Shown in pieces: positions 25-29,575 of a stretch of DNA of 29,575 nucleotides; position 1 is the stretch's first letter; each line of letters starts with the position of its first letter. Under the pieces are notes generated by a model. That model ran no database searches and was not told the origin of the DNA. It saw only the letters and a list, made by a program, of their open reading frames with translations. A program made the position numbers and the translations under genes. Source of the DNA: a virus; the IMG/VR virus record IMGVR_UViG_3300022074_000264, positions 1 to 29,575 of that record. One strand, written 5' to 3'.

Positions 25-402
25 TTATCCTCTGGTTTGGAGGATTGGTTCTCCTGGTTCATAATCGGATATCTCGTAATCCACGAGTCTTGAGCCAGGA
101 TACACTTTTCTTATCTGATCCTGAACTTCTGTTCGTGATGGTCTTTTTACCATGGGGAAGAACATTTTAATCATGAAGTTTCTTCCTCTCCATGCTGCAA
201 TAACAGTGAATATATTTCCTACTTTTTGAAAATCTGGAATGCGGGTTGCTTCGTATTGAATATTTGATTTGGGTGATTTGATTGGATCTGGTTTGATGAT
301 ATCAATTGTTTCAAACTCTCTCCACTGAATATCTCCAGTAGCATCTTCGACCTTAATGCCACAATTTTCTAATGCACCTACTTGTGCTGGAGACCATCCC
401 AT
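25..402 (-). CDS. Conserved-type hypothetical protein downstream of the structural block
   Basis: A 125-residue soluble protein with no signal peptide or membrane helix. It opens with a helical 'MGWSPAQVGALENCGIKVED', followed by 'WREFETIDIIKPDPIKSP', a beta pair 'VGNIFTVIAAWRGRNFMIKM' that looks like a small antiparallel sheet, and 'TEVQDQIRKVYPGSRLVDYE', a helix-strand end. The alternation suggests a small alpha/beta fold. I do not recognise the function. The start ATG at 402 lies 19 bases after the previous stop with no clear Shine-Dalgarno; TATAAAAA (410-403) directly precedes it. In T4 the large terminase gp17 would follow gp16 here, so this gene may lie just before gp17, which would start beyond the window edge; the edge hides this. 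Confidence 0.78.
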   Translation of the reverse strand: MGWSPAQVGALENCGIKVEDATGDIQWREFETIDIIKPDPIKSPKSNIQYEATRIPDFQKVGNIFTVIAAWRGRNFMIKMFFPMVKRPSRTEVQDQIRKVYPGSRLVDYEISDYEPGEPILQTRG

Positions 403-421
403 TTTTTATATCAATACTGTA

Positions 422-1051
422 TTATTTAGTATGTGGAATATCTACATCATCACATCCTGCGTATGAAGTAGATAGATCTGCACCTATATCACCACCCTTA
501 TCTGCACCGAACATAGTGACAAATCCAGCAGCAACCCAACCTACAAATGGTATATTTGAGAGTGCAGGAGCAGCTTGAGCACCAACAGCACCACCTACCA
601 TTCTACCAGTTCCTCTTCCAGATCCAGCAGCTTCAATACACGCAACTGTCTTAGCACTGATTGTTGGAGTCTCTCCTTTTGCATTCTGTGCGGAGGGATC
701 TATCCACGCACTTGTGCTGCTAACTGGCCCACCATGATGAATTGCTCCATCCATTGTGTACATTTCTGTTGTCTGTATATTTTCCTTCTTCATTCCTAAG
801 AATCCACCTCTCTTCTCTATATCTTTTACATTCGACATTACTAATGGATCATTGGCTCTATATGCCATATCGTATGAACCATCTGCATTACTTTTAATTC
901 TGTATGATGTATAAGGGCCAACAGGAAGTGAGGGAAACCGACTTTCCTCTGCACTCTTTCTAGCGATCATGCCAACTAATCCAACTTGAGTTAATGCAAA
1001 TATAGCACCAAAACCCAGTGCGAACAGTTTAACAGGCGATTTTATAGTCAT
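422..1051 (-). CDS. Membrane-anchored hypothetical protein with glycine-rich hydrophobic region
   Basis: 209 residues from the ATG at 1051. A TTG 33 bases upstream (1084) would add 11 residues but gives a start inside the previous gene with no better ribosome site. The N-terminus, after TIKSPVK, is a clear hydrophobic helix (LFALGFGAIFALTQVGLVGM), then a basic turn (IARKS). This is a signal-anchor or uncleaved transmembrane segment, with the rest probably outside the cytoplasm or in the virion. The middle is polar with no known motif. Residues about 150-195 are Gly/Ala-rich and hydrophobic (GRMVGGAVGAQAAPALSN, PFVGWVAAGFVTMFGAD), like a glycine-zipper hairpin. Two of its three visible cysteines are near this part. 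I do not recognise the family. A membrane, lysis-linked or injection role is possible but unsupported. Confidence 0.8.
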   Translation of the reverse strand: MTIKSPVKLFALGFGAIFALTQVGLVGMIARKSAEESRFPSLPVGPYTSYRIKSNADGSYDMAYRANDPLVMSNVKDIEKRGGFLGMKKENIQTTEMYTMDGAIHHGGPVSSTSAWIDPSAQNAKGETPTISAKTVACIEAAGSGRGTGRMVGGAVGAQAAPALSNIPFVGWVAAGFVTMFGADKGGDIGADLSTSYAGCDDVDIPHTK

Positions 1052-1080: not shown

Positions 1081-1371
1081 TCAACCACCATTTCCACCGC
1101 CACCGTTTCCACCGCCACCATTACCACCAGAACCACCGTTTCCACCACCATTTCCACCACCATTTCCTCCATTTCCATTGCCACCATTACCGTTTCCATT
1201 GCCATTACCATTACCAGCATCTGATCTATTGTCAGGTGCTAGATATCCTCCTCTACCAACATGATATCCACCAGGTATCTTCTTACATTTCTGGTCATCA
1301 TAGCACCAGTATTTTCCTTCAGGGCATCTCTTAGCGGCTGCCTCCTCAATAAATTTATTAAAGTTTTTCAT
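1081..1371 (-). CDS. Small protein with capsid-targeting-like leader, three-Cys module and Gly/Asn tail
   Basis: A 96-residue protein in three parts. Residues 1-11 (MKNFNKFIEEA) resemble the T4 capsid-targeting leader of internal proteins (MKTYQEFIAEA), with an I-x-E site where the prohead protease gp21 could cut. Residues 15-45 (KRCPEGKYWCYDDQKCKKIP, then GYHVGRGGYL) form a compact Cys/aromatic/basic module with three cysteines (16, 23, 29). Residues 53-96 are a nearly pure Gly/Asn tract ending in GGGGNGGGGNGG. The ATG is four bases after the fibre stop, so it is probably co-expressed. Small proteins with the same Cys module occur in T4-like marine phages, but I know no function. A packaged internal or virion protein is the best guess. 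Confidence 0.8.
   Translation of the reverse strand: MKNFNKFIEEAAAKRCPEGKYWCYDDQKCKKIPGGYHVGRGGYLAPDNRSDAGNGNGNGNGNGGNGNGGNGGGNGGGNGGSGGNGGGGNGGGGNGG
1084..1222 (-). repeat. Low-complexity (GGN)n/(GN)n coding repeat
   Basis: The plus strand is a run of 'ccacc', 'ccatt' and 'ccgcc' units. On the minus strand it encodes alternating Gly-Asn and then Gly-Gly-Asn/Gly-Gly-Gly-Asn to the stop codon. It is more G+C-rich than its surroundings and likely to change length by slippage. Confidence 0.85.
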
Positions 1372-1375
1372 AGTT

Positions 1376-4300
1376 TTAGACTGTGACTAGATCTTTGAGT
1401 ATGGTGACTGTGGCAGATGATGCACTTCCCATTGTTACTTGGAATAAGACATTATCTCCACTGATTGTTCCAGAGAATGATCCTAACATAGATCCTGTAG
1501 CAATCGCGTTTTCTTCCACAACGGTGACTGTTGTTCCGTCATGTATTAATGAGTATTTACCACTCTGGTAAGCTGACCCCTGAGTAACTAATAATTTAAT
1601 AAATGCTGCTCTATAATCTGCCTTCGCAAATGACAGAACTGTGGTTGCACTTGTAGATGAAACAGCAGTATCTTCCTCTGATGCACCAACACCTGTCAAT
1701 GCAGATCCATCACCAACAAAACTTGTTGCAGTTACGATTCCAGCAGCAATATTACCATTAGTGAATACAGTTGCACCAGTGCTGACAGATAGTTTAGTTC
1801 CATCAAAGGTTAATGATGATTCTCCATTTAATGTATTAGCAGTTCCTGAACCAGTTATTATTCTATTATCTGCATTCGTATTGATTGTTACTCCTGCTGG
1901 TAATCCAGTTAAGTTCGCTCCACTTCCTACAAAACTTGTGGCAGTTACGATACCAGCAAATGTAGCATTACCATTAGATGCAATAGTAGCAGCAGTTCCT
2001 ACCTTTAATCCACCAGTAGATGTTGTGACTCCTGAAACACTCAGTGTTGTTGAAGATACATGATCCGTGTTAGCTACACCAGTTAATCCTGATCCATCTC
2101 CAACAAAGTTAGATGCAGTTATTATACCTGAGAATGTTGCATTACCATTAGCAGCAATGGTAGCAGCAGTTCCTACGTTTACTGCTGTTATTGTAATGGT
2201 TGGATTACCTGTTAATCCTGCAGCAGTTCCTGAAGTATTTTGATTACCAGCTTCGTTTACACCTGGTAGATTGATATTAGCAGATCCATCAAATGATACG
2301 CCACCAATATTTCTTGCAGTTTCTAACGCAGTAGCAGTATCAGCATTACCTGTTGTATCTTGGTTTAATGTAGGTATTTGAGATGCAGTCAATCCAGTCA
2401 ATCCTGAACCACCACCTACAAAATTAGCTGCAGTTAGTATACCAGCAAATGTAGCATTACCATTATTTGATATGGTTGCAGCAGTTCCTACCTCAAATCC
2501 TTTTGCTGTGACCACACCAACAAAGTCAGAATCACCAGTGGATGTAAGAGTAACTCCCGTTCCAATACGAACCTTTTCCTCACTACCATCAATGGTGACT
2601 GATCCAGTTCCTATGGTTAAGATACCTGTTATCCTCGCGTCACCTTGCACGATCAATGCAGTTGTGGCTGATCCTGCTTTTACGTTTACGCCATTTAAGA
2701 AAGAAGATAAACCAACAAAGGTTGATACACCAGCAGTTACATGTAAACCTTCTGAACCAGTTTGTTGTATTCCTTTTGTTGCAGTAACAATACCAGTAGA
2801 AAATATATCAGTTACAACATCATAGTTAAGTTGAGATGCTGTTACAATACCACTAAAGAATCCATTTGTTGCAGTAATAACACCAACACTCATTCCAATG
2901 CCAGATACATTACCCTGTGTTAATGCCTCGTGTAATGTTGAACTCTTATCTAATGCAGTGCTTGCAATACCTACCCATTTATCACCATCATAGATTAATA
3001 AACTACCAGTATCAGGGCTAGCACCAATACTTACATCAGAAAGATCTTTTATAAATCCAGCACCACCGCCACCGATTACGGCAAGTTGCTGTTGAGTTCT
3101 ATTGATGAACAATCTATAATGATCTGCTAATGATTTTAAATTAGGAAACTGTTTGTCTAGAGGAGCTAAAGGATCATCACCAGTTCCAACTGATTGTGTT
3201 TTTTCTGGTGGTTCATTTAATAAACCTTCCTGTATGGTTTCTACTTCATCTTTTGTTAGTTTTTGTTTCTGTCTTATATCTTCAACAAGAATCTTAAGTG
3301 AATCTAAACCTTTACTGAATTCCTCTCGAACATTCTTAATGTCTTCTTCATAATATTTGACTTTGGGTAGATTACTTATCTCCTCTGTTAGTGATTCAAA
3401 ATATCCAGCATATAGATCTTTAGTATCTTCATTAGTTTTATTAAATTTTTCAACTTGTTCTTCTACATTTAACTTTAACAGATTATACTTACTCATAATC
3501 TGTTTTTTCATCAACCTATCATCATTCTTGAATGAATGTTTTATATCAAGAATACCTACAGCAGCAGTTCTTAGCTCTTCATATATTTTTTCTTTTGTTT
3601 CAGTAAAGTTATGAGTTAATTCATTTATTTCAGTTTTAGATTCAAATCTTTTAGTTTCAAGATCTTCTGATAGTTGTCTAACTTCTTCAGTAATTCTATT
3701 TCTAATAGAGTCTGCATTATCAGCGACTTTGATAAAGTCATCATCAATTACACTGAACTGTTTTCCTATCCATGAAAAATCAGGAACTTCATTTACCTCG
3801 TTTACCCATTTAGGGAATACAGGAATAGATTCTTTTAATAGAACAATTTCATCTCTTATAGATGTCAGATCACCTTCATAGTGTCTAATTTCTGGAAGAC
3901 TCTTGAGACTACTTTCAAGACGTTCAATTTGATCATCATAATACCGTATCTCTGGTATCTCCGCAGCGTTTGTACGTACTTCCTCCTTTAAGTCATCAAT
4001 CAATCCACATATTGCTTCTATTTCTTCATCATAAGATTTCTGTTCAGGAACTTCAGGAATGCTTCCTTTAACTTCCTCAACGTATTCAGTTAGTGCCTCT
4101 AGTTGTTTATCATAATATTTTACTTCTGGTATCTCTGGTATATCTTTTCTTACGTCATTTACTAAACGAACAATTTCAGTATACTGTTCTTCAATAGAAC
4201 ATGGTGCAGTATCTGGTGGTTCTTCTTTACTCTGTTGTATTGCATCTGCTATCTCTTCCTCAGGCCTCGGAGGTTCTATAAACTCATCCACGGAGGGTAA

Positions 4301-4378
4301 TTTCTCTTCAGTTATAAGTTCATCTACAGATGGCAACTCTTCATAGAAGTCATCTATAGACGGTAGTTTCTCCGTCAT
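1376..4378 (-). CDS. Long coiled-coil and beta-repeat fibre protein
   Basis: A 1000-residue protein, probably a trimeric virion fibre. Residues 1-35 hold three copies of an acidic motif (LPSIDDFYE, LPSVDELI, LPSVDEFIE). About residues 75-190 hold four helical units starting IPE-[VI]-x-x-Y-D (PEVKYYDKQLEALTEYVEEV, PEIRYYDDQIERLESSL). A long coiled coil runs to about 395, with another PKVKYYEEDI near 340. Residues 440-475 (GFIKDLSDVSIGASPDTGSL, YDGDKWVG) form a common fibre linker. Residues about 600-890 contain beta repeats VGTAATI-x-x-NGNATF-x-GI-x-TA-x-x-FVG-x-GS-x-LTG. The last 100 or so residues look like a compact C-terminal beta domain. It could be a T4 fibritin/whisker analogue or a side fibre, and I see no T4 foldon. 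The gp16-adjacent position is unlike T4. No strong ribosome binding site is visible. Confidence 0.87.
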   Translation of the reverse strand: MTEKLPSIDDFYEELPSVDELITEEKLPSVDEFIEPPRPEEEIADAIQQSKEEPPDTAPCSIEEQYTEIVRLVNDVRKDIPEIPEVKYYDKQLEALTEYVEEVKGSIPEVPEQKSYDEEIEAICGLIDDLKEEVRTNAAEIPEIRYYDDQIERLESSLKSLPEIRHYEGDLTSIRDEIVLLKESIPVFPKWVNEVNEVPDFSWIGKQFSVIDDDFIKVADNADSIRNRITEEVRQLSEDLETKRFESKTEINELTHNFTETKEKIYEELRTAAVGILDIKHSFKNDDRLMKKQIMSKYNLLKLNVEEQVEKFNKTNEDTKDLYAGYFESLTEEISNLPKVKYYEEDIKNVREEFSKGLDSLKILVEDIRQKQKLTKDEVETIQEGLLNEPPEKTQSVGTGDDPLAPLDKQFPNLKSLADHYRLFINRTQQQLAVIGGGGAGFIKDLSDVSIGASPDTGSLLIYDGDKWVGIASTALDKSSTLHEALTQGNVSGIGMSVGVITATNGFFSGIVTASQLNYDVVTDIFSTGIVTATKGIQQTGSEGLHVTAGVSTFVGLSSFLNGVNVKAGSATTALIVQGDARITGILTIGTGSVTIDGSEEKVRIGTGVTLTSTGDSDFVGVVTAKGFEVGTAATISNNGNATFAGILTAANFVGGGSGLTGLTASQIPTLNQDTTGNADTATALETARNIGGVSFDGSANINLPGVNEAGNQNTSGTAAGLTGNPTITITAVNVGTAATIAANGNATFSGIITASNFVGDGSGLTGVANTDHVSSTTLSVSGVTTSTGGLKVGTAATIASNGNATFAGIVTATSFVGSGANLTGLPAGVTINTNADNRIITGSGTANTLNGESSLTFDGTKLSVSTGATVFTNGNIAAGIVTATSFVGDGSALTGVGASEEDTAVSSTSATTVLSFAKADYRAAFIKLLVTQGSAYQSGKYSLIHDGTTVTVVEENAIATGSMLGSFSGTISGDNVLFQVTMGSASSATVTILKDLVTV
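1735..2500 (-). repeat. Coding repeats of the fibre beta region
   Basis: Four visible units have similar DNA as well as protein. The plus strand shows near-copies of 'gtagcattaccatta' followed by 'gcagcagttcctac' at about 1950-2000, 2128-2180 and 2441-2490, with a diverged unit near 1741-1800. Each encodes VGTAATI..NGNATF or close to it. Such repeats could allow fibre length to change by recombination. Confidence 0.75.
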
Positions 4379-4418: not shown

Positions 4419-4832
4419 TTATTTATCTTCTTTTTTAGTCTGAGCTTTTAATAGTTTTGATAACTCAGATGTTGATCCTACAAACAGTGCATTATTAACT
4501 GTAGATGGGCCTTTTGTTTTCTCTTCCTCATTAACTTCTTTTAGTTTCTTTTGAAGATCCATTAACTTATCAGTCGCATCAGCAACATTCTTTATTAATT
4601 GACCTGCGACTTCATATGCTCTTGGCATTTCACTTTCTTGAGCAAGTTCGAGTATGCCATTTATTGCCTCTTGACCTTTCTCTATAATACTGTAAAGATT
4701 TCCACGAGTATATTCATAGTCTTTACTAATATGATCAACACTTGGTTTTTCTTTTTTTTGAACTTTTTCAATATCTGCAGGAACAATACTTGTTTCTACA
4801 TTGAAAGCATCATCTAATCCGTCGGTTTTCAT
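4419..4832 (-). CDS. 16: Terminase small subunit gp16
   Basis: Homologue of T4 gp16, the ring-forming small terminase that recognises DNA for packaging and regulates the large subunit gp17. Visible family features are the acidic N-terminus, 'DYEYTRGNLYSIIEKGQEAI' (T4 '[20 protein letters not shown]') near residue 40, 'SEMPRAYEVAGQLIKNVADA' (T4 '[20 protein letters not shown]'), a Lys/Glu-rich helix, and 'NNALFVGSTSELSKLL' (T4 'QNATVFMGSPTELMDEI') near residue 115. The 137 residues compare with 164 in T4. The start overlaps the gp15 stop as ATGA, so it is probably translated by coupling. In T4 gp17 follows at once; here a fibre gene follows and gp17 is not in the window. Confidence 0.93.
   Translation of the reverse strand: MKTDGLDDAFNVETSIVPADIEKVQKKEKPSVDHISKDYEYTRGNLYSIIEKGQEAINGILELAQESEMPRAYEVAGQLIKNVADATDKLMDLQKKLKEVNEEEKTKGPSTVNNALFVGSTSELSKLLKAQTKKEDK
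4420..4427 (-). promoter_or_regulatory. T4-type late promoter candidate upstream of the fibre gene
   Basis: The minus strand reads GATAAATA, overlapping the last codons and the stop of gp16, about 41 bases before the ATG of the 1000-residue fibre. In the 40-base gap is a small stem, GGGA-GAGGAA-TCCC (4414-4401), whose loop holds the only purine-rich Shine-Dalgarno-like run. Confidence 0.5.
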
Positions 4833-5818
4833 GTGTAAGATCCGTCAAATCCAAAATCATCACCCAATTCGATTAGGTTGCTATCCTCTCTAGGTGAGTA
4901 ATCAATACCTTTAATTCCAGTTCCTCTAACATGTGTTTTAGCAATCGTGCTATCCTGACCTCTTTCAACAGTAATTTTATTACCTGTAATCTTAGTAACT
5001 TTCATCTCTTCACCGTCAACATCAATAAATTTATTAACTGTGATTTCAGTTCCATCAGCAACGTTAATTACTTCTTGAGATGCGTCTATATCTTCACTTA
5101 TGGTTGTTACAACATCATTAGTATAATCTTTGAGTGCTCTTGGTTTGACAGAGAATGTAACATCTCTTTGTGTGCTTTGTGATCCACCAGCAAGATAACG
5201 AACAGAAGCAGTCTTGATGATATCTTTGGATGCAGCAGTAACAGGGCCAAATAGATATGTCTTTGCGGTAAATCTTAAAGTATAATATAAAACTCTTCTA
5301 GATGTGAAGTCTCCTTCATATTCATCCTGCATTGTAATATTTTCTAATACAACAGGAACATCTTTCTTTTCGTTTATCATACTCACTAGATTGATAGTCA
5401 AATTATATTGTGGTTGGAAATATGGTAATATCTGTTCTACTATCTGTAATGCGTCATCATTTAGTTTACACATAATTGCAAGTTCAAATTGCATATTATA
5501 TGGAACTGGCATGAATACCTTTTTAATATCTGTTCCGTCGTCTGGATTCTTAACTGCTATTGTTTGAGTTGTTGTTACCTTTCTAGATGAGTCATATGTA
5601 AGACCAGTAAACTCAAAAGACATTCTAGGCAAACTAATCGCAGTTGCTTGACTTAGATTTGGTGCTTGCTCTAATCTTGCTAAAAATTTTTGTGTTGGGC
5701 CATAAGCTAAAGGAACTTTTACAGTTGATCCATCTTGCTTTATACTAATACCATTGAACAGTGTTCCAAAACTGATAATAGTTTTTCTTAAAATTTCGTT
5801 GTAAAAATACTCAAACAT
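4829..5818 (-). CDS. 15: Tail sheath stabilizer and completion protein gp15
   Basis: Homologue of T4 gp15, the hexameric ring that caps the tail tube and sheath and binds the neck. The start 'MFEYFYN' matches T4 'MFGYFYN'. 'PLAYGPTQKFLARL' matches 'PITYASKEHFMMKL', 'LPRMSFEFTGLTYDSSRK' matches 'LPRINLHLVDFSYNAPFK', and 'ALQIVEQILPYFQPQYNLTI' is nearly identical to T4 'MFQIVEQILPYFQPHFNTTM'. The length is 329 against 272. The extra C-terminal part (about residues 235-305) carries a small module, 'INVADGTEITVNKFIDVDG' then 'ITVERGQDSTIAKTH', that also appears in two other structural proteins here. AAGAGG sits eight bases before the ATG. The last codons overlap the gp16 start by four bases (ATGA). 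Confidence 0.94.
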   Translation of the reverse strand: MFEYFYNEILRKTIISFGTLFNGISIKQDGSTVKVPLAYGPTQKFLARLEQAPNLSQATAISLPRMSFEFTGLTYDSSRKVTTTQTIAVKNPDDGTDIKKVFMPVPYNMQFELAIMCKLNDDALQIVEQILPYFQPQYNLTINLVSMINEKKDVPVVLENITMQDEYEGDFTSRRVLYYTLRFTAKTYLFGPVTAASKDIIKTASVRYLAGGSQSTQRDVTFSVKPRALKDYTNDVVTTISEDIDASQEVINVADGTEITVNKFIDVDGEEMKVTKITGNKITVERGQDSTIAKTHVRGTGIKGIDYSPREDSNLIELGDDFGFDGSYT

Positions 5819-18069: not shown

Positions 18070-18077
18070 TATTTATT
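18070..18077 (-). promoter_or_regulatory. T4-type late promoter candidate upstream of gp8
   Basis: The minus strand reads AATAAATA, one mismatch from the T4 late consensus TATAAATA and a match to the looser NATAAATA used by T4-like marine phages. It begins inside the stop codon of the giant gene (18079-18077) and lies about 21 bases before the gp8 ATG. A run of seven A follows. In an AT-rich genome a single such match is weak evidence; support comes from its place in one of the few gaps and from three similar sites in this window. Confidence 0.5.
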
Positions 18078-21000
18078 TAGACGACATAATTCTCAGATTT
18101 AAGAGCCGCCTTTCTCTTAACCTGTGGGCCAGTCTTGATACCAGTGATACCATTAGTGGTGTTTATGGTGTAGGCCTGTGCTATTTGTCTATCTGTTAGT
18201 TGTAATCGACCCCAACTATAGTCACCTATGAATGATGTTGATAGACCTTGATTTAATGTAGAATAACCAACAGTGTTCTCTAATCCGTTCCAATCTAAAA
18301 CTCTACAGAATACTCTTGTTAATGATTCTGCTTGATCAGAACCAAATCCAACAGTTGTAACTCCAACGTGATGAGACACCTCAAAGATATTATCTAATGC
18401 AGTTGTTCCAACACCAACATAACGACCAGCTCTATCTAGTGAAGTAACTCCAGAACCAATATTAGAACCACTAACTGTAAAGAAGAATCCAGTTGTCAAT
18501 CCACTGACTGAAATTGGATCAGGGCTAGTTACATTCTCATCTCTTAATGGAGAACTTTTTGGAATATACAAGTCAAATACAACAGCAGTTCCAATACCAA
18601 TTCCTACACCATTTGCTCTAGAGATATTTGAGCATATACCAACTCCAGTAACAATACCAAAGTCTCCTTGATATAAATCAATGGTATTTTCTTCCCTAAC
18701 ATATGTAGGTGGAGAAATTAGAACAACAGGAGGTTTAGCAGATGTATAACCTATTCCAGAATTAACTCCTACCGTAATTGCATTTACAACTCCGTTACTT
18801 ATTGTAGCAGTCGCTATTGCTATGGTTGTACTTCCAATACCAGCAAACCCAGTATTACCGACACTTACAGGTTGTTGTATTTTAACTGTAGGTGCAGCAG
18901 TATAACCCTCTCCACCATCAGATATTTCAATACTTGAGATTGTTCCAGCGATAGAGACGACAGCCGTTGCAGCAGCACCTGCAAGGAATTCATACTCATG
19001 ACTTGCGTTAACAATCTGAATATCCTTTTGGAAATCTCTGTTTACTGGGTTTTCATTTTCTGGATTAAAGAATGGTTTACAGTTATCAATGAATATAGAT
19101 GTTGAACCAACACCAACAGATTGTATTAGATACGCTGTTGGGAATAAGTTAGGTTCATATAATGGTCTGTCTTTACGAACTATTCTTCCATCAATATACT
19201 TATCTTCAAGTTGTCTATACCATTTAACAGGCCTCGTCTCTGTTTCAGAATCACCTAAACCTCTTCCATAGTATTGGTTAGTATCAACTTGACTTGATGA
19301 TACAATCTCAGACACAGTTCTTGGAAATTCTACGAACGTTCTTGTATTGTAAGCGGGATCAAATCCTATTTGTAAGTCATCACCAACTTTAACAGTTTCT
19401 ACAATGTCTCTATCCTTCACATCCTCACCACCAGTTCCTCTATAGAAGAACATTCTCATAACATCACCAGAGTTTGGTGCTTCGGTCATTGTTATTGATC
19501 CACCACCATCAAATATATAACCCTCACCAGGAACTTGTAAAACATCATTTATAGTAAGAATGATGGTATCCCTTACAACAATATTTGATCCAGTTCTTGC
19601 CTGTATAGCAAATGCTTCACCAGCAACTGTAAGTGGGAATACCTTTCTAGTTCCATCAAATAAATTTGAGAAATCATCAATCGCTTGAAGTTCTCCCATA
19701 CTCCACATATTAAATTCATCATGATGAACTCTATCTAAAGTTAACTTAAATGGTTTAAGTAAATGTGCATCTATTGGAACTGCATATGATTCACCAGGTG
19801 CACTAGCAAATGTAGGAACTGTTAAAACTTGAGCATTCTTATATCCAAATCCAGTATTCGTTATCTCAAAGTCAATAACACGACCACCTGTGGTTGCTAC
19901 ACCAACTGTGATGTTTGCTCTTGCTTGTGATCCACCAACACCTGGTGTTGAATCATTATCATACCAAAGAGGGATATCTTGATATGGTAATGGTGCATCA
20001 ATTATTGCAGTAAATGTTGATTGGCCAGTTCCAACAGATGATGGGTTTTGAGTTCCAATACCTGGTATTGGATTAGTATTTGTAACAGCGATACTTACAA
20101 CACGACCATTTGTAACTGCTGCAGTTCCAATATTTTGAATAGTTGGAGTTCCTCCAGAGGTTGTTACTGCAATAGCAACATTAACAACAGTCGCAATTCC
20201 AACACCACCAATCGAAGTGACTGATCCCAGACCAGCATAGCCTGGAGATACTCTGTAACCAGAACCGCTATTACCAATACTGACTGCAGTGGCAACACCA
20301 ATGTTATTGAAATGTATTGTAGCACCAGCAGACACTAATGGTTGATATCCTAATCCCTCACTTGATGCTACAGAAACTATAATACCACCAACTGGAACTG
20401 AAGCATTATTAACATCATTAGCAATAGACGATGCAGTTCCTGTGAATGTTATCGATGTGATTCCAGAAACTTCAGATAATGCATAGTCATTCAAAGCACC
20501 AGCACCCTGTAATATTCCATTTACCATTACAATGCCAAGGTTTGTTGCAATACCAGTTACATTTGACTTATTAACTTTGAGAGTAAATTCTTTGGTTTGA
20601 CCATCAAACTGTTGAGATATATCATCAATGTTATAATTTGCAGCATATGCTTTTGTAGATCCACCCTTAATACCAGATCTATTAAATATTCTTCCACTGA
20701 AACTTGATGTAGTTGTAATACCAACAAAATCTCTTTCATTTGGTGGTGATGTTGATACACCTATTTTTGGTCTGTTACCAATAGGTGCAGCAGCAAAATT
20801 AAGTGTGCTATCTACAATATTATAATTACCAGACATTTTCTCAACAATATCATGATTCGAGTGTGCGATAAGATCTGTTCCCATCCAATTTCGATGAACT
20901 CTAATTGCACTAGTAATACCAGCATTATTAACTGCTATTATCTTCATCATCTCATGAGTAGTGGCAGAGCCAACTCTAATAACATCTCCACTAAAGAATG

Positions 21001-24000
21001 ACGTTATTCCAGAAGTAAACATAATAGTTTCACTTCTGGGGAAGTCTGCACCCAGTGATGTGGTAACTCCAGTTCCCACAATAGGGCTCTGAATTATGTT
21101 GTCAATTGATATTAATGCTCTTGTATTTTGATTTTTACTTATAAAACTATGAGATGTTCCAACACCAACCGAGGAAAGTTCTAGTGGAACTGTAATTGAC
21201 TTAAGTGCATTTTCTGCTGTTGATGCTAATTTAACCACACTATCACTAACCTTAATGATAAAGACAGATGAAGGAACATAAGTTACGTTTGCAGGAGAAG
21301 TTGATGGTGTATCTGCAATTCCTATAGAATCACCTGTGCTTCCAATACCTGTGGTTGTGCATCCAACTATTGGTTGTGCAATAGCATACTCGACTTCTTC
21401 ACCACTTACAAAGAAGTGATTAGGAATAGTAATTTGATTGTTTGTGAGATCAACTATATCACTATCAGATCCATCAAAATCAACTTTAAATATTTCATTG
21501 TCATTTACATCTAATATTGGGAATTTAGTTCTAGCACCAAAGAAAGTTCCTTCATATACATCAAATTTAGTTTGAATGGTCGCTGCATTTAAATCAACAC
21601 TTGTTGGAGCACTAGAAGTTTCAGTTACTTTAAGAGCATGTATAACTGTTTTAACTTCAACTGGTATATTTGCATTTGGAACAAACTTTATTTCAGTATC
21701 ACAATCACCGTGGCCACCTTTTTCACCAGATATAGTTCCAATACCAGTTGTTGCACCAGCACCAGTTACAATATTTCCATACTCCGTCATGAATACACGA
21801 TTATCATCATCAACCATCATCAATTCAGCAAACTCATATGTATCGTTTAAAGTATCTTTGATTTGAACAATAGCATACGCACCATCAAACTCTTGAGTAT
21901 AACTACCAACACCCACAGGCTCTGGTGCAGCACTTGCTGGAATTGTTGTAGATTTTGCTATCAATGAAGCATTCTTTAACGGTAAAGTTCCCACACCAGT
22001 AAATGATTCTGATGATATTCCTATAGTAACAGTATTAACAAATGCCGTTACAATACCAGCGTTTGGTGTAAATCCTATCTGAACTGCAGCAGTCGTTCCA
22101 AGACCGACTATATGTGGTCTGAATGTTCCTAATGGTTCTGCAGCGAGATTATCTCTTCTATTATGAATTGTTAACTGACCATACTGTTCAAACGCTACAG
22201 TAGATCCTAAACCTACAGCACTTTGATGCATTACTAGACTTAGCTCATTATATTCTACAGTTCCTTCACTTGTTGCAATCGAAACAATAACTTTAGCAGA
22301 TCTTGGATTAAATAATTGATATTGAGCAGTATCGGAAGCACTATAATTGATAGATCCTGAAGTAAGTGCAATTCCTGTTGTAGATGCTGTTCCTACAGTC
22401 GCTATGATAAACTCACCACCACCATGAGCAGATCCACCTAATGTTGTGGCAGCACCAATATGAACAAGTGCTCCAACTGGATTTGATGATGCTCCTATAG
22501 CAGTTGAAGTACCTACAGTTAGAGAAGTTGATAAACCAAGTTCATTAAGGTTGTATGAAAGTGTTGATACATTATAATTGTTAAATTCACTCTTGGTTGG
22601 GAAGAATCTAAGAACTGCCTCACTACCATCAACAGTAGAATCCATTGAACCAAGATCTTTTACAGTATCTACTTGACCATACTGATTAATCATTGATTGG
22701 CCACTAAGAGGATCAAATAAAGCATTGACCATCATTAATTGCCTTTCACCCTCAAATAATCTATCTTTTACATATACAATAAATCTATTTTCTTTATTTC
22801 CTGAAATGTCATATCTACCTATTTCAGAAAAAGGTGTATTTCTTGGTTGATCTTGGAAATCTTGACTAATATTCTTAATCTTAATAACTCTATTACCAAC
22901 AGACTCAGCATAATCAATTAGAATACGATTCTGGAAGTTAATCTGATCAGAAAGATTACCAGCAGCAGGAGCTCTTGATTTTAAATTTTCTGTAACTAGA
23001 TCAAAATTGTCAACTTCATGTAAACTCTCAAATCCTTGTATATCAATAACTTGAGTTACTGTTCCAGCAATACCCACTACCATCGATGCCTTTTGAGCAA
23101 CTGGTAAATTTGATTCTACTTGAAGATTACTAAATTTTTGGAAACCTGCAGTATGGTTTAAGGTATTGACAACATCTTTCCATTTATCAAAGAAAACTCT
23201 AGATTTAATCGCATACGCAAATCTTTGATAATATTCATTCTCATGAGTTACCTGTAGAACATTACTTAAGAATCCAGTTTCATATTCCCAACCATTATTG
23301 ACCATTGAGAAATAATCTAAAGCAAAATTGGTATCAAACGTAAGAACTATCTCAGATACAGTTCCTTTTGCACCTGTTTCTGCAGATTCAATTAATTTAC
23401 CAACCTCAAAGTCACTGGCTGCTTCAACAGTCAACCACTGACTTTCTTCATCATAATCAAAAGCAAGACCAGATACGGGGCCAACACTTGTTTCTGACGT
23501 TAGAGTTTCATTAGCATTAAATGTGTTAGGTTGTAATTCAACGGAGAATTGTGGAAAATCTCTTTCTTTTACTAATATGGCAGATGATAATGTGGCATTG
23601 AAATTACCAGGTACTTCACCAGATGGAAGATTTCCACCTAAACTATAAGTTACAATACCAACGTTACCTAAGTTTTGGTGAACTTGCGTTACCTCAAATG
23701 TGCGGAACTGATATGCCTCTGAGTTATATCCAAATCCTGTAGATCCAACACCAACACTAGAATTTTCAACAAATAAATTATCTCCAACTTCTATTGGAAA
23801 TTCATTAGCAAAACTGTATGCAACTTTTAACGTTGCTGCAACAGTATCTGTAGATGAATCATAAACAAGATTTGTTACTCTAATTCCATTAGGATTATTA
23901 ACAGGAACTATGATAGGAGTTATATTTGTTAAACCAAAAGTGTTTTCAATAATATCAACATATCCCTCTCTATCTGGAGTTGAAAGATTATATCTTAAAT

Positions 24001-27000
24001 CTGCATCAGGATCTTTTGCTCTACTAACACCATCAAGAACAACAAGTGAAGGTGGTTGATTATATCCTTGACCATACGATGTAATACCAACAGCCTTAAG
24101 GCCAGATAGTGCTTCAATTTTAATAATTTGAGGTAATTTGGATTGTGGTCTTAATGTAAAGTCTGATGGATAATCAAAACCAATATTATTAATTTTTGCA
24201 GTTTTAGGTATACCTATTGATCTACTAGATGCCTCCAGAATAGCACCTGTACCCGTGTCAGAGGTCACAGTAGACACACCAGGTAATCTAGTATATCCTT
24301 TTCCTTTTTCAGCGATTGCAATTGCTGCTATTGGGCCATATGCAGTCTTAGATGTAGTATCATAAATGACCTCAGTTGTTGAAGAACTTGTATATGATGG
24401 TTCTTCTGGATATTTGTCTAAATCATATGTGAATGTATTGTCAGAATTTGCAAGGATATTAAATTGACCAGCATAACGACTATCTCTAAAACTTATGGAA
24501 TTATTACCAATAATTTCCTTGTCTAAAACAAGTTCTTTGTTTATGTCGAGATTATCTGTGGAAGTATTAGCAACTAGATTATAATAAAGTATTTTGGGGG
24601 TATTATTGTTATATGTTAATACCAATTTACCATCAATACCAACTGTTCCAGATCTAGTTACATTAAATGTTGACGATTTTTCATTTGAGGTATATTCATG
24701 TATAAAGTTATAATCCGTATAAAGTTCTAAATCAAACGCGGGTAAAGTATCAGCAACTTTAGTATATGATAAAGATGAGTCTGATAGATCAAAAGTTATT
24801 GTTCCATTTTTGTAAAACTCCAAAGGTGGATTTACTAAATTAAGAACTCCACTATTTCCACTGTTAGCGGTTAAAATTCCAACAAATTTAGGTCTTCTTT
24901 GTTGTGTTTGGAATCTACTACCACACAACTTAATTTTATCTTTGTTAATAACATATACAAAATATTCTTCATCATTTACTAAACCACCTATTGGGCTAGA
25001 TGATGTATGAATGACTCTTTGGCCAGTTACCATCTCATGATTAACAATTTCAATAGTATCAGGTATACCTGTTAATGCAGTTGATGTATTAATACCAGAT
25101 GCAGTGAAATCTAATGTTCTTGCTATTAATTTTCTGTTCGCTTTATTATATTTGATAGGAACAGTTGTAACAATTCCAGCATTAACAGTCAAGAATACTC
25201 TATCATTATGACCCAATCCATGACTACTTGCCGTAGATACAGTTACTAAATTTTTCTCTATGGATCCTTTGGTAGTTTCATCATAAGCAATCTTTAAACT
25301 GTGATATACACCAGTTCCAATACCTGTAAAATATAATAAACTTTGTTTTTTTGTAGTAGCAGCAGCACCTACAAATATATCCTCTGGATCTACACCATCA
25401 CCTGGTGTTCCTAAACCAATTTTAACTGTTGACAATCCAATTAAATCATCACTTAATTTTGCTACAAACAATGGTGTTGCTTCAGGTAAAGTTACGGAAG
25501 CAACTAGTAAATCAGCATTAGCACGATTTGTTGCAACACCTATAGAATTACCAGTATTTCTTTGGTATGTGACCTTATCACCAGTTTTAAATTTATGGTT
25601 TGGTAAACGTATAGATCTAGATGGTATGAATAATTGAGACATACCAGAACCAGGATTTTGAATACTTACTGTTGTTCCAATGCCAGGCCCAGCAGTGGTT
25701 CCTACACCAACTGACTCTACTGGATTAAAGTAATATTCTAAATCAATTTCATTATCAAATGTAGTGTTAAAACCAACATCTATCTTAAACTTTCTAGGAT
25801 CTTCTTCCACTGCTGTTGTTGCAGTATGTGATGCACCTGTTACACCATCATCAAGACTATTTTGATTTCTTAATACTCGCAATCTAGATGAGGCAGCATC
25901 AATATTAAGTATCTTAACTTCCTCTTGTCTTGTTCCAATACCAACTTTCAATATATCATTTTCTCTTATTGCAAGATTGTTAAGATTATCATTAGGAGAT
26001 GGTAACTTACCAAGAACATTAAAGAAAGTAACTAATCCTGTTGCAGCTACTGATCCTATACCTTGTGATATAATTAACTTAGTTGAAGATATTCCAATAT
26101 TATAAGTTTTACCCCCAATAAAAGAACTAGTGGTTGTCAATCCAGAAACATAAACTTTATCACCATTTTGCAATCCTATTGGTGTGGTATGAACACCAAC
26201 AAATCTACCTCTCTCATCTGCTGGATAAAATTCTATATTATTTAATTTTGTGTTAGTGATTGAAATAGTTCCAATTCCAGGCCCCCTTACTTTTGATACC
26301 TTTGCAACTGTTTCAAAATTATCAGCAACTTCTTCTTCAAATACAATTTTATCATTTACTTGATATAAAGAACCACCAGTTACAATACCAACTTTATCTA
26401 CAGCACCTTCAGAGGCAAATGTAACTTCACCTTCTTGAGTTACATATTTGTATGATTGACTCACATAATCATAGGCACTATCATCTTGAAGTAATTCATA
26501 TGGTTCTGTGTTTCTTACCCATGTGGTCTTATTAAGATTAATTTCATCTTGATTACTCTTTGATAAAAAGTTAAACTCATTTGGTTGAGCTCCAAAGTTT
26601 TCACCCAATAGATATGGGAATTTTGGTTTTTTGAAATTATTAAATGGATCACTCGAATCTGATGTTACAGTAGATTCAAGAGTGGAGAAATACGCATATA
26701 TTCCATTTGGATACTCTGGAGTTATACCATATCTTCCATTATTTTCATCTAGGTAACTCTCATCAGTGTTACTATTCCAAGTGAAATCTTCGATGAAAAA
26801 TTCCTGTGGGAAAACATCTGTAGGAGGTCTATTAGTTTTTAGATCAACAGAATATCCAGAATTTAATTGAGTAACAGATCCACCAGTGCTTTTTTCATAT
26901 CCATATGGGCCGTATATTGGAAGACCATCATATGCCCAACCAATAATAGGTGAGTGTTGTGTTTTATTTTCTTCCACACCACTTGATAGAGTTAAATCTC

Positions 27001-29575
27001 TACTTCCATATAAGGGAGTTCCTGCAGAGTTATTTTGATATACAATTTTTCTTAATCCTCTTGGTGCGTATGCATGAGAACACTGCAACTCACGACTAAT
27101 TTGAGTTGGTTTTTCTATGAATACATCAGAGTCATCTATATTTGTAAAGTTCTTTCTAACTTCATTTACTTGCCATGTTTTGAGATTTGATTGGAATATT
27201 GCAAATTCACCAGCAGACTCAACGTTAAGTGAAGTGGTTGAAGCACCATATCCAACACCACTCTTTATAATCTTAACAGATCTTATTTGGCCTCCAATAA
27301 TCTCTGGAACTAATTCTGCTCCAGTTCCAATACCCGTAACTGAAATGCTAGGAGGAGTATTATATGATTGACCTCTATTCTGAATCGCAACGTCAATTAT
27401 TTTACCACCAGACACAACTGGTAATAATTCACCACTTACACCACTGTATAAGTCAATTCTTGGTTGCCTGTTAAAGTTAAGTATTTCAGATGCACCGTAA
27501 CCAACACCACCATGAGTTAAGTGAACTGAAGTAACTTCACCTCTAAACAATGGTTGAGGAATACATTGGAAATTTTTTCCCTCTATTGAACTTATACCAA
27601 CAATACCTTCAACTTTTACAACGATTGGATCATAATTAAAGTTGTGAGTTCCAACTCCAATAGATCTTAGGTTTTCATATTGTTTTGTTCTAAAGTAAAA
27701 ATCTTTTGCTGTTGTTCCTACACCCACATTTGATAATTTAAAAGTATTTTCGTCTACAACATACACATAATATTTTTTATCGCTTGAGAGACCCTCTATA
27801 GATGTTCCGTTTGCATCAGCAGTATAAGTTACAATCTCACCTGTCTTATAATCATGATTATTGATTGTTATTCTATCAAGTGCAGTATTGATACCAGTTG
27901 GTTCACATGTTTTAAGTTTATTCTCGTATCCTTCACCAGATTCTAATACATTTATACTACCAACCTGAGATTTTCCATTCAATGATCTAAATTGATGGTT
28001 TCCTTCACCTACAGCAGTGAATCCTATTGTATTAACACCAGCAACTGCTTCATCTAAGTTTCTATGAAGTCTAATTGTTTTTTCTGGATACCAATTTGTT
28101 CCTGCATATCCCACCCACGTTGCTATAGTTGTTAGACCAGCAACATTCTCAGTATTAACGTAATATATCGCTCCTGTGCTTAAACCAGATAATGCTTTTC
28201 CACCAAAAGTATCGTATACAACTCTTTCATAATTTCTAAACTTATGATATGTCAAAAACCCAACGTTAAAGTCATCAGACCCAGTTACTACAATAGTTTG
28301 AGATCCAGAACCAGAGTTAAATACCACTTGATGTGGAACAGTAACCATTTTACACTCGGCAACAGCACCAGTTCCATTTCCACCACTTATTGATACTTTT
28401 GGAACATCAACATAGTCAAAGCCTGGTTCTTCAACTCTTATCTCCTGTAAACTACCTCTAGTTGCGACATATCCAGTAGCCCCTGCTCCTACACCGTCAT
28501 TAATTGCCAATTGGGGTGGATTCATAACATCATACTTTCTCCCACCACCAGTAACGTCTATAGACTTAATATCACCATAATAACAAAGGTCTTGAGATTT
28601 ATAACTTAATACTTCAACACCGTTAATTAAAACACCATTATATCCGATTCTTGTTTTATATTTTTTACCATCATAAACTGGTATGTCGATTTCTCTAAAC
28701 AATTTTTGTGGTAAAATTTTCTTATTATTAAATTCATACTTCTCAAAAGTGTTATTTGTGATTTCAACAGTAACAGTTGACTCGGATACTTTTTGATAAT
28801 TACCATCATATAGATTTGAACGAGATTTTGCTAATCTAATGTCATTTAAATTTACTCTTTCTACAAAATATAATCCTTCACTGAAAAGAAAACTAGAAAC
28901 TGTTCCATCATCATCTTTTTGAGGTGTATAATAGATTGCATCACCACTAAAGAAATTATGATCATTAGATCCAGTCGTGATTCCGATAATTGTTTGGCCA
29001 CCAAGAAAAGTTCCAGATAAATTAATTTTCTGAGTGCTTGGATTTAATTTATGATTAGATCCATATGTTGGTATGGAGTTAGACGCAACTAGATTTTTAA
29101 TTTTGGATAATGTATGTGCATACCCAACTTCATCCATGTATATGTTTTGAATATTTGCAGTATAGTCATTTAAATGCTGTTGATTGTCATTGACACCACT
29201 TCCATCTGAGTTTCCTTTTGCAAGAGTCTTTGTTATCGCAGCGACTGCCGAAAGATCACTTATTGCAGCACCTTGCATTCTAATTTTAACATTACTCAAA
29301 ACGTCAGTAACAGTATAGCTACCAGTTAAAGTAGCATTTGCAGTTTGAACTGTGATTACATCATTTAATCTTATTCTATGAAAATCCTTAGTAACGACTT
29401 CATAGGTAGGGCCTGAAGCATCTTGCAATTCAATAGTATCAATATTATACTTTGGTTGAACATTAAATATCCAGTTATTAGATTTAAAATCAGTTATATG
29501 TGCAATCTTACCAAGTGACTTTAATTTTATTTTTGCACCAAGTCTCTGATAGTAAGTATTAGGTAATTCTATATC
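18077..29575 (-). CDS. Giant virion structural protein with YHYH-type motif, gp7-like segment (5' partial)
   Basis: The frame is open to the window edge. The first possible start inside the open frame, a TTG at 29428, is preceded by 49 more sense codons, so the true start lies outside and at least 3832 residues are encoded. It stands directly upstream of gp8, the place of T4 gp7. Numbering from the TTG at 29428: Gly/Tyr-rich beta repeats (GVGYGAS and similar) lie near 300, 650 and 728. A YHYH-type segment with GWAYDGLPIYGPYGY lies near 820-840. Residues about 2045-2095 (EYYQRFAYAIKSR, then W-K-x-V and H-x-x-G) resemble the C-terminal part of T4 gp7. An M-K-I..R-x-H module lies near 2805-2855, and FDG-T-K/R beta modules near 2943 and 3258. 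No enzyme motif is evident. Likely a baseplate or peripheral tail protein. The structural role is fairly sure; equivalence to gp7 rests on position and weak similarity. Confidence 0.85.
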   Translation of the reverse strand, partial: DIELPNTYYQRLGAKIKLKSLGKIAHITDFKSNNWIFNVQPKYNIDTIELQDASGPTYEVVTKDFHRIRLNDVITVQTANATLTGSYTVTDVLSNVKIRMQGAAISDLSAVAAITKTLAKGNSDGSGVNDNQQHLNDYTANIQNIYMDEVGYAHTLSKIKNLVASNSIPTYGSNHKLNPSTQKINLSGTFLGGQTIIGITTGSNDHNFFSGDAIYYTPQKDDDGTVSSFLFSEGLYFVERVNLNDIRLAKSRSNLYDGNYQKVSESTVTVEITNNTFEKYEFNNKKILPQKLFREIDIPVYDGKKYKTRIGYNGVLINGVEVLSYKSQDLCYYGDIKSIDVTGGGRKYDVMNPPQLAINDGVGAGATGYVATRGSLQEIRVEEPGFDYVDVPKVSISGGNGTGAVAECKMVTVPHQVVFNSGSGSQTIVVTGSDDFNVGFLTYHKFRNYERVVYDTFGGKALSGLSTGAIYYVNTENVAGLTTIATWVGYAGTNWYPEKTIRLHRNLDEAVAGVNTIGFTAVGEGNHQFRSLNGKSQVGSINVLESGEGYENKLKTCEPTGINTALDRITINNHDYKTGEIVTYTADANGTSIEGLSSDKKYYVYVVDENTFKLSNVGVGTTAKDFYFRTKQYENLRSIGVGTHNFNYDPIVVKVEGIVGISSIEGKNFQCIPQPLFRGEVTSVHLTHGGVGYGASEILNFNRQPRIDLYSGVSGELLPVVSGGKIIDVAIQNRGQSYNTPPSISVTGIGTGAELVPEIIGGQIRSVKIIKSGVGYGASTTSLNVESAGEFAIFQSNLKTWQVNEVRKNFTNIDDSDVFIEKPTQISRELQCSHAYAPRGLRKIVYQNNSAGTPLYGSRDLTLSSGVEENKTQHSPIIGWAYDGLPIYGPYGYEKSTGGSVTQLNSGYSVDLKTNRPPTDVFPQEFFIEDFTWNSNTDESYLDENNGRYGITPEYPNGIYAYFSTLESTVTSDSSDPFNNFKKPKFPYLLGENFGAQPNEFNFLSKSNQDEINLNKTTWVRNTEPYELLQDDSAYDYVSQSYKYVTQEGEVTFASEGAVDKVGIVTGGSLYQVNDKIVFEEEVADNFETVAKVSKVRGPGIGTISITNTKLNNIEFYPADERGRFVGVHTTPIGLQNGDKVYVSGLTTTSSFIGGKTYNIGISSTKLIISQGIGSVAATGLVTFFNVLGKLPSPNDNLNNLAIRENDILKVGIGTRQEEVKILNIDAASSRLRVLRNQNSLDDGVTGASHTATTAVEEDPRKFKIDVGFNTTFDNEIDLEYYFNPVESVGVGTTAGPGIGTTVSIQNPGSGMSQLFIPSRSIRLPNHKFKTGDKVTYQRNTGNSIGVATNRANADLLVASVTLPEATPLFVAKLSDDLIGLSTVKIGLGTPGDGVDPEDIFVGAAATTKKQSLLYFTGIGTGVYHSLKIAYDETTKGSIEKNLVTVSTASSHGLGHNDRVFLTVNAGIVTTVPIKYNKANRKLIARTLDFTASGINTSTALTGIPDTIEIVNHEMVTGQRVIHTSSSPIGGLVNDEEYFVYVINKDKIKLCGSRFQTQQRRPKFVGILTANSGNSGVLNLVNPPLEFYKNGTITFDLSDSSLSYTKVADTLPAFDLELYTDYNFIHEYTSNEKSSTFNVTRSGTVGIDGKLVLTYNNNTPKILYYNLVANTSTDNLDINKELVLDKEIIGNNSISFRDSRYAGQFNILANSDNTFTYDLDKYPEEPSYTSSSTTEVIYDTTSKTAYGPIAAIAIAEKGKGYTRLPGVSTVTSDTGTGAILEASSRSIGIPKTAKINNIGFDYPSDFTLRPQSKLPQIIKIEALSGLKAVGITSYGQGYNQPPSLVVLDGVSRAKDPDADLRYNLSTPDREGYVDIIENTFGLTNITPIIVPVNNPNGIRVTNLVYDSSTDTVAATLKVAYSFANEFPIEVGDNLFVENSSVGVGSTGFGYNSEAYQFRTFEVTQVHQNLGNVGIVTYSLGGNLPSGEVPGNFNATLSSAILVKERDFPQFSVELQPNTFNANETLTSETSVGPVSGLAFDYDEESQWLTVEAASDFEVGKLIESAETGAKGTVSEIVLTFDTNFALDYFSMVNNGWEYETGFLSNVLQVTHENEYYQRFAYAIKSRVFFDKWKDVVNTLNHTAGFQKFSNLQVESNLPVAQKASMVVGIAGTVTQVIDIQGFESLHEVDNFDLVTENLKSRAPAAGNLSDQINFQNRILIDYAESVGNRVIKIKNISQDFQDQPRNTPFSEIGRYDISGNKENRFIVYVKDRLFEGERQLMMVNALFDPLSGQSMINQYGQVDTVKDLGSMDSTVDGSEAVLRFFPTKSEFNNYNVSTLSYNLNELGLSTSLTVGTSTAIGASSNPVGALVHIGAATTLGGSAHGGGEFIIATVGTASTTGIALTSGSINYSASDTAQYQLFNPRSAKVIVSIATSEGTVEYNELSLVMHQSAVGLGSTVAFEQYGQLTIHNRRDNLAAEPLGTFRPHIVGLGTTAAVQIGFTPNAGIVTAFVNTVTIGISSESFTGVGTLPLKNASLIAKSTTIPASAAPEPVGVGSYTQEFDGAYAIVQIKDTLNDTYEFAELMMVDDDNRVFMTEYGNIVTGAGATTGIGTISGEKGGHGDCDTEIKFVPNANIPVEVKTVIHALKVTETSSAPTSVDLNAATIQTKFDVYEGTFFGARTKFPILDVNDNEIFKVDFDGSDSDIVDLTNNQITIPNHFFVSGEEVEYAIAQPIVGCTTTGIGSTGDSIGIADTPSTSPANVTYVPSSVFIIKVSDSVVKLASTAENALKSITVPLELSSVGVGTSHSFISKNQNTRALISIDNIIQSPIVGTGVTTSLGADFPRSETIMFTSGITSFFSGDVIRVGSATTHEMMKIIAVNNAGITSAIRVHRNWMGTDLIAHSNHDIVEKMSGNYNIVDSTLNFAAAPIGNRPKIGVSTSPPNERDFVGITTTSSFSGRIFNRSGIKGGSTKAYAANYNIDDISQQFDGQTKEFTLKVNKSNVTGIATNLGIVMVNGILQGAGALNDYALSEVSGITSITFTGTASSIANDVNNASVPVGGIIVSVASSEGLGYQPLVSAGATIHFNNIGVATAVSIGNSGSGYRVSPGYAGLGSVTSIGGVGIATVVNVAIAVTTSGGTPTIQNIGTAAVTNGRVVSIAVTNTNPIPGIGTQNPSSVGTGQSTFTAIIDAPLPYQDIPLWYDNDSTPGVGGSQARANITVGVATTGGRVIDFEITNTGFGYKNAQVLTVPTFASAPGESYAVPIDAHLLKPFKLTLDRVHHDEFNMWSMGELQAIDDFSNLFDGTRKVFPLTVAGEAFAIQARTGSNIVVRDTIILTINDVLQVPGEGYIFDGGGSITMTEAPNSGDVMRMFFYRGTGGEDVKDRDIVETVKVGDDLQIGFDPAYNTRTFVEFPRTVSEIVSSSQVDTNQYYGRGLGDSETETRPVKWYRQLEDKYIDGRIVRKDRPLYEPNLFPTAYLIQSVGVGSTSIFIDNCKPFFNPENENPVNRDFQKDIQIVNASHEYEFLAGAAATAVVSIAGTISSIEISDGGEGYTAAPTVKIQQPVSVGNTGFAGIGSTTIAIATATISNGVVNAITVGVNSGIGYTSAKPPVVLISPPTYVREENTIDLYQGDFGIVTGVGICSNISRANGVGIGIGTAVVFDLYIPKSSPLRDENVTSPDPISVSGLTTGFFFTVSGSNIGSGVTSLDRAGRYVGVGTTALDNIFEVSHHVGVTTVGFGSDQAESLTRVFCRVLDWNGLENTVGYSTLNQGLSTSFIGDYSWGRLQLTDRQIAQAYTINTTNGITGIKTGPQVKRKAALKSENYVV
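19600..20660 (-). repeat. Paired FDG beta modules in the giant protein
   Basis: Two related segments of the giant protein. One begins 'QQFDGQTKEFTLKVN' and continues 'IVMVNGILQGAG' (near 20600). The other begins 'NLFDGTRKVFPLTVAGE' and continues 'IILTINDVLQVPGEGYIFDG' (near 19660). Both follow the pattern FDG-x-[TR]-K-x-F-x-L ... I-x-x-x-x-NG/ND-x-L-Q-x-x-G, known from many phage tail and fibre proteins. They are diverged copies rather than recent duplicates. Confidence 0.6.

Follow-up and report, generated by a model that had tools for sequence, protein, structure and literature searches.

The question raised by this locus is whether a 96-residue protein encoded among the structural genes of a marine phage is carried inside the phage head by virtue of an N-terminal leader like that of the T4 internal proteins, and, if so, to what end. 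The window, by which is meant the entire stretch of DNA analyzed, corresponds to an IMG/VR virus record 29,575 bases long and represents part of a marine cyanophage genome of the T4-like type. T4-type gp8, gp13, gp14, gp15, and gp16 are found on its minus strand with giant structural proteins interspersed. One reading frame, open over more than 3,800 codons, extends past the window end (18077-29575, minus strand) and specifies a giant baseplate/structural-region protein. Following gp16 are, in order, a 1000-residue fiber-like protein, the 96-residue protein under study (hereafter the target), a protein of ~210 residues, and a protein of 125 residues. The relevant genes are listed here.

4829..5818, minus strand: gp15, tail sheath stabilizer (PF16724, E 7e-83)
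4419..4832, minus strand: gp16, terminase small subunit (phrog_445, E 1.3e-55; PF11053)
1376..4378, minus strand: 1000-residue tail-fiber-like protein, directly upstream of the target (several PHROG tail-fiber profiles, best E 3.3e-19)
1081-1371, minus strand: the target, a 96-residue capsid-cargo candidate with a leader, a 3-Cys module, and a Gly/Asn tail (open reading frame translation, relatives)
422..1051, minus strand: protein of ~210 residues with a hydrophobic N-terminus, between the target and the 125-residue neighbor (phrog_605)
25..402, minus strand: 125-residue neighbor sharing a module with a multi-module virion protein of phage S-SCSM1 (45% identity over 92 residues)

The nearest contigs, L003/G006 and L008, display 90-92% DNA identity to the window over 2.0 and 6.1 kb. 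As read from its translations, L003 continues with gp17, gp18, gp19, gp20, an acidic 83-residue protein, a 192-residue protein, gp21, and gp22. Annotated isolates matching the target are phages of Prochlorococcus and Synechococcus, for the most part Kyanoviridae, and judging from these relatives the host would be a marine cyanobacterium. The 125-residue neighbor shows a weak match to L217, a leader-bearing free-standing relative.

The target reading frame extends from an ATG at 1371 to a stop codon at 1081-1083 on the minus strand, and its start lies four bases past the end (1376) of the upstream fiber-like gene. The N-terminus reads MKNFNKFIEE/AAAKRC..., where the slash marks the predicted cut. 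The protein can be divided as follows.

1342..1371, minus strand: capsid-targeting-type leader, residues 1-10, MKNFNKFIEE (conserved positions 4, 7, 8, and 10)
1339..1344, minus strand: predicted gp21-type cleavage point between Glu 10 and Ala 11 (T4 IPIII record and the family residues E10/A11)
1231..1332, minus strand: 3-Cys module, residues 14-47, CPxGKYWCxxDxKCKxIPxGYHxGxGGYL (invariant residues, predicted β unit)
1084..1218, minus strand: Gly/Asn-rich tail, residues 52-96, predicted to be disordered (composition, pLDDT, retention in relatives)

The sequence-only reading of this locus had described a small, Cys-rich protein with a Gly/Asn tail, and this description is borne out by the 3-Cys module and by the 36 glycines and 14 asparagines of the predicted mature protein. 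With its 86 residues, a pI of 8.9, and a net charge of +3, the latter would be both small and basic. In 13 diverse copies of the module the invariant residues are C, G, Y, C, K, C, K, P, and G. An AlphaFold2 model of the target suggests a leader helix, a small β unit (residues 20-46), and a disordered tail, albeit with low overall confidence: the mean pLDDT is 55, with about 81 over residues 21-40 of the module and values below 50 from residue 50 onward. The Gly/Asn tail is retained among the relatives. A Pfam scan of the target matched zero domains, DUF6321 (PF19846) included, and a PHROG profile search returned phrog_30733 as the sole match; the internal-head-protein profiles phrog_2667 and phrog_8765 did not match.

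The leader itself, which together with Ala 11 spans 1339-1371 (MKNFNKFIEEA), was said in that same reading to track the T4 sequence MKTYQEFIAEA. Indeed, Met 1, Lys 2, an aromatic residue at position 4, Phe 7, Ile 8, Glu 10, and Ala 11 are shared. In the GenBank record for T4 IPIII (MKTYQEFIAE/A), the mature protein begins after residue 10. Mutagenesis in T4, as reviewed, has assigned residues 4 and 7 mainly to targeting and residues 8 and 10 to processing (PMC9026906). The target has Phe 4 and Phe 7 at the targeting positions, and its I8-E9-E10/A11 stretch contains the cleavage determinants, namely a hydrophobic residue at 8, a glutamate at 10, and a small residue at 11. Note that the positions conserved in the family, F4, F7, I8, and E10, coincide with those used for targeting and cleavage in T4, with positions 3, 5, and 6 being variable. 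Phe or Tyr at 4 and Phe at 7 are near-invariant among the target relatives. In a set of 83 family members filtered on residues 4, 7, and 8, such that Glu 10 and Ala 11 lay outside the filter, E10 occurs in 75 and A11 in 73. At the level of sequence, then, the presence of a T4-type capsid-targeting leader on the target is confirmed. Within the window it is borne by the target gene alone, and the relaxed leader core was found at none of 9,397 internal positions.

Relatives of the target were collected from IMG/VR (the best 80 of 94 stretches were kept) and were also found in 40 phage or SAG records. To avoid selecting on the leader, IMG/VR was additionally searched with the 3-Cys module alone. 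In this module-only search, all 43 small copies with the module near the N-terminus carry the leader (40 complete, three at contig ends). For larger proteins with an N-terminal module, eight of the 15 complete cases have a leader, and the other seven are leaderless and start with MAKKC.... In P-SSM4 and P-SSM3, the alternative frames ahead of the module were checked for a hidden leader, and nothing convincing was observed.

The collection as a whole, 2.9 million viral contigs, was scanned at the DNA level for MKx[FY]xxFIxEA, yielding at least 125 matches on at least 120 stretches. Among the 125 matches listed, 117 are gene-start-like, and 122 either have an open frame of at least 60 codons or reach the contig edge. 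As controls, two patterns with these residues scrambled were run across the full collection and produced 11 and 16 matches, making them at least about sevenfold rarer; only one of the 11 and none of the 16 are gene-start-like. When the leader was removed from 180 distinct leader-bearing proteins, a set that includes target-family members from other searches, they fell into 47 clusters unrelated after residue 11. Given these 47 clusters, and given that the module also occurs without the leader, the leader and the 3-Cys domain are separable. Two of the clusters match annotated T4-type internal head/virion families, phrog_2667 (E 5e-43) and phrog_8765 (E 2e-45), and as positive controls they validate the pattern. 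Other clusters correspond to nucleotidyltransferases, a GNAT acetyltransferase, a P-loop protein (AAA_33), a 5'-3' deoxyribonucleotidase, and DUF6321, and many contain no known domain. PADLOC gave two weak matches among the leader-bearing proteins.

A relaxed leader scan adds SAM lyase, a family with an anti-restriction role, to the cargo. A search for the leader on other genes had been proposed as a check; the window offers only the target, and it is the relatives that provide such genes. AG-345-L05 contains at least three. One encodes a target relative, another a SAM lyase (PF23780, E 6e-19), and a third a protein with an N-terminus similar to that of the S-SCSM1 nucleotidyltransferase. Leader-bearing SAM lyases (PF23780) are located at L356:3837-5081(-) (S-CREM2 gp6), L118:12421-12936(+) (AG-345-L05), and L144:32753-33268(+) (P-TIM68). 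Three further leader-bearing proteins, at L158:3736-4149(+), L218:1085-1591(+), and L176:1211-1858(-), have HGT...-type stretches that by eye are ADP-ribosyltransferase-like, a resemblance that is unproven; a Pfam scan of those from L158 and L176 returned no match.

Cleavage of the leader would call for a gp21-type prohead protease, and its presence in the genome had likewise been put forward as a check. The 29.6-kb fragment stops short of the expected position. In the ~90%-identical contig L003, however, gp21 lies ~8.5 kb downstream, and it retains, as in T4 gp21, the histidine of GELxHP and the serine of GVSSRG, which we take to be the catalytic residues. The corresponding family, PF03420, is present in all 15 related records with the 3-Cys module. 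Of 16 longer records recovered in the scans for the leader pattern and the module, nine contain it, including all four above 140 kb, versus two of 11 control contigs.

Virion proteomes of related phages allowed the leader to be compared with published mass spectrometry. A strict leader regex missed the T4 IPI and P-TIM68 leaders, and a second missed most of those in S-CREM2; because these stricter forms missed known leaders, a relaxed regex was fixed. It matches five of 219 annotated S-CREM2 proteins: the SAM lyase gp6, gp13, the APH-like kinase gp14, gp136, and the nucleotidyltransferase gp154. Every one of these was detected in virions, as tabulated in PMC10665884 (Fisher p 6.5e-4, or 3e-5 with known structural proteins excluded), a test that was not blind since the regex had been relaxed after some of these N-termini were seen. 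According to the S-CREM2 authors, CsCl-purified virions may hold carry-over proteins (PMC10665884). The mass-spectrometry-positive gp6 would be an expected anti-restriction enzyme among the head cargo. Once fixed, the regex was applied unchanged to S-SCSM1 and S-SZBM1. Of two leader genes in S-SCSM1 (282 genes, 45 detected, from the record and PMC9602691), one product was detected, an NMNAT nucleotidyltransferase beginning with MKSFLQFLKEA. In S-SZBM1, of which the initial 150 kb out of 178 kb were covered, there are likewise two real leader genes, one detected (a cytidylyltransferase, MRFRQFIIEA); a third regex match was rejected as a gene, the frame lying inside recA. Pooled over the three proteomes, seven of nine leader proteins were detected (p 1.2e-4), and for S-SCSM1 and S-SZBM1 alone two of four (p 0.11). 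The undetected proteins in the latter two are about 105 residues long, a size that yields few tryptic peptides. By our reading of PMC9602691, "virion protein" in the S-SCSM1 record denotes detection by mass spectrometry. One protein so labeled, ORF29, is a larger, leaderless form with the 3-Cys module, and hence the module may reach virions by another route. S-CREM2 gp12, L356:7704-10313(-), is a virion protein annotated as Cas9 that has no Pfam match; it displays the leader-like stretch LRFASFMAEA in an offset position and, after this, a segment, LGLVSDGHG, common to leader-bearing proteins of the nucleotidyltransferase cluster, and the Cas9 label looks doubtful.

With respect to known systems, the target is most readily compared with T4 IPII and IPIII, with which it shares the length of the leader, its positions 1, 2, 4 (aromatic), 7, 8, 10, and 11, a small and basic protein, and a gp21-type protease in the same viral lineage. 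It differs in that the mature part, with its 3-Cys module and Gly/Asn tail, is unrelated, the gene sits between gp16 and gp17, and the host, as deduced from relatives, is cyanobacterial. The target would be an additional T4-type internal protein with a mature part unlike that of IPII/IPIII. Similarity of mature parts to IPI-III is not a defining feature, since the T-even internal proteins have the leader alone in common (PMC3012670). T4 IPI, which is injected and inhibits the restriction enzyme GmrSD (PMC3012670), is also small and leader-tagged, and the SAM lyase among the other leader cargo of these phages is likewise expected to act against restriction; the IPI leader region, MKTFKEFTSTTTPVSTITEA, is longer, and similarity to the mature target was not detected.

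A second group of relatives comprises the T4-GC 119 or DUF6321 proteins (S-SCSM1 ORF29, S-SM2 SSM2_109, and Bellamy gp123), which are often encoded between gp16 and gp17 and share only the 3-Cys module with the target. Whereas the target is small, these are mostly 230-1000 residues long with several fused modules, and the leader is often absent. ORF29 starts with the module of the target and also holds that of the 125-residue neighbor together with DUF6321. In P-TIM68 AIR93449 (373 residues; L082:5161-6282(+), two genes after gp23), the C-terminal part relates to the target (65% identity over 52 residues) and has its own internal MKNFTSFMEA stretch, but is fused behind an unrelated N-terminal part. 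S-SZBM1_192, at L367:22628-23125(-), occupies the same gp16-gp17 slot and combines DUF6321 with the leader MKTFKQYITEA and a Cys-rich segment of another kind. Most copies of fused DUF6321 modules are preceded by a glutamate and then alanine, glycine, or serine (SE/GAAW, AE/GAAW, DE/AAAW), and fused or internal 3-Cys modules by leader-like stretches (FTSFME/A, FQNFVEE/T, LSRFMGEA). These Glu-Ala/Gly/Ser and FxxF[MV]E stretches fall at the spot where the leader would be cut in free-standing forms. It is conceivable, though we would put it no higher than a tentative suggestion, that marine T4-like phages use the leader generally as an address tag, borne by a large and rapidly changing repertoire of delivered proteins, and that some lineages make a module polyprotein cut by gp21; the stretches could equally be part of the folds. 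In the full-text literature searched, with most subscription journals outside its coverage, the capsid-targeting sequence in cyanophages was represented only by one T4 review with a single cyanophage mention (PMC9026906), and no paper on DUF6321 was found.

Taken together, we place at roughly 0.82 the probability that the target is packed into the head of a T4-like cyanophage as an internal protein, cut by gp21, and ejected with the genome; the earlier proposal of a head-packed protein with a T4-type leader is supported. On the basis of T4 biology and leader conservation, packaging and cleavage are very likely, and injection into the host is probable. Phe 4 and Phe 7, as the main targeting residues, would lead to uptake into the prohead core, where a gp21-type protease would cut after Glu 10 (I8-E9-E10/A11). 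The 86-residue basic product, a 3-Cys module with a flexible Gly/Asn tail, would then stay among the DNA and, upon infection, exit by way of the tail along with the genome. Given the nature of the other leader cargo, the mature target would most likely be an early host-takeover or anti-defense factor, the alternative being a DNA or core binder.

That last possibility can be extended to a protein sent to the prohead as a structural component, neutralizing DNA or assisting core assembly, rather than as an injected effector. Its basic character and long disordered tail would suit such a function, and T4 IPIII has been tied to head morphogenesis as well as host range (PMC9026906, PMC9391042). Enzymes such as SAM lyase, nucleotidyltransferase, GNAT, and kinase-like proteins make a better fit to delivery, however, and the free-standing gene is not universal, other architectures taking its place in sister phages; we thus regard a purely structural role as possible but unlikely.

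The N-terminal segment might instead be a conserved helix of the 3-Cys domain, without a targeting role, in a protein belonging to the tail-fiber neighborhood. The gene does adjoin a fiber-like gene between gp16 and gp17, and the leader-like stretches before internal modules noted above point the same way. That the leader heads 47 otherwise unrelated clusters, and that the module does without it in the MAKKC... proteins, makes this quite improbable. Finally, only 10-11 residues match, and an MK start is common among small phage proteins, such that a short hydrophobic-acidic N-terminus could resemble the T4 leader by chance. The pattern MKx[FY]xxFIxEA is expected ~6e-7 times in the 13-gene set of the window, given its amino-acid composition, scrambled patterns almost never fall at gene starts, and the leader is conserved across the target family. 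Chance resemblance, which we consider exceedingly improbable, was rejected on these grounds. The preferred reading remains that of a packaged and delivered internal protein.

The proteins that cyanophages carry into their hosts are largely uncharted, and virion proteomics has yielded unexplained enzymes such as a nucleotidyltransferase, a kinase, and SAM lyase. An N-terminal tag would explain their presence in virions and would make such cargo predictable from sequence, including that of uncultured ocean viruses. It yields a list of candidate anti-defense and host-takeover proteins for the abundant marine T4-like phages.
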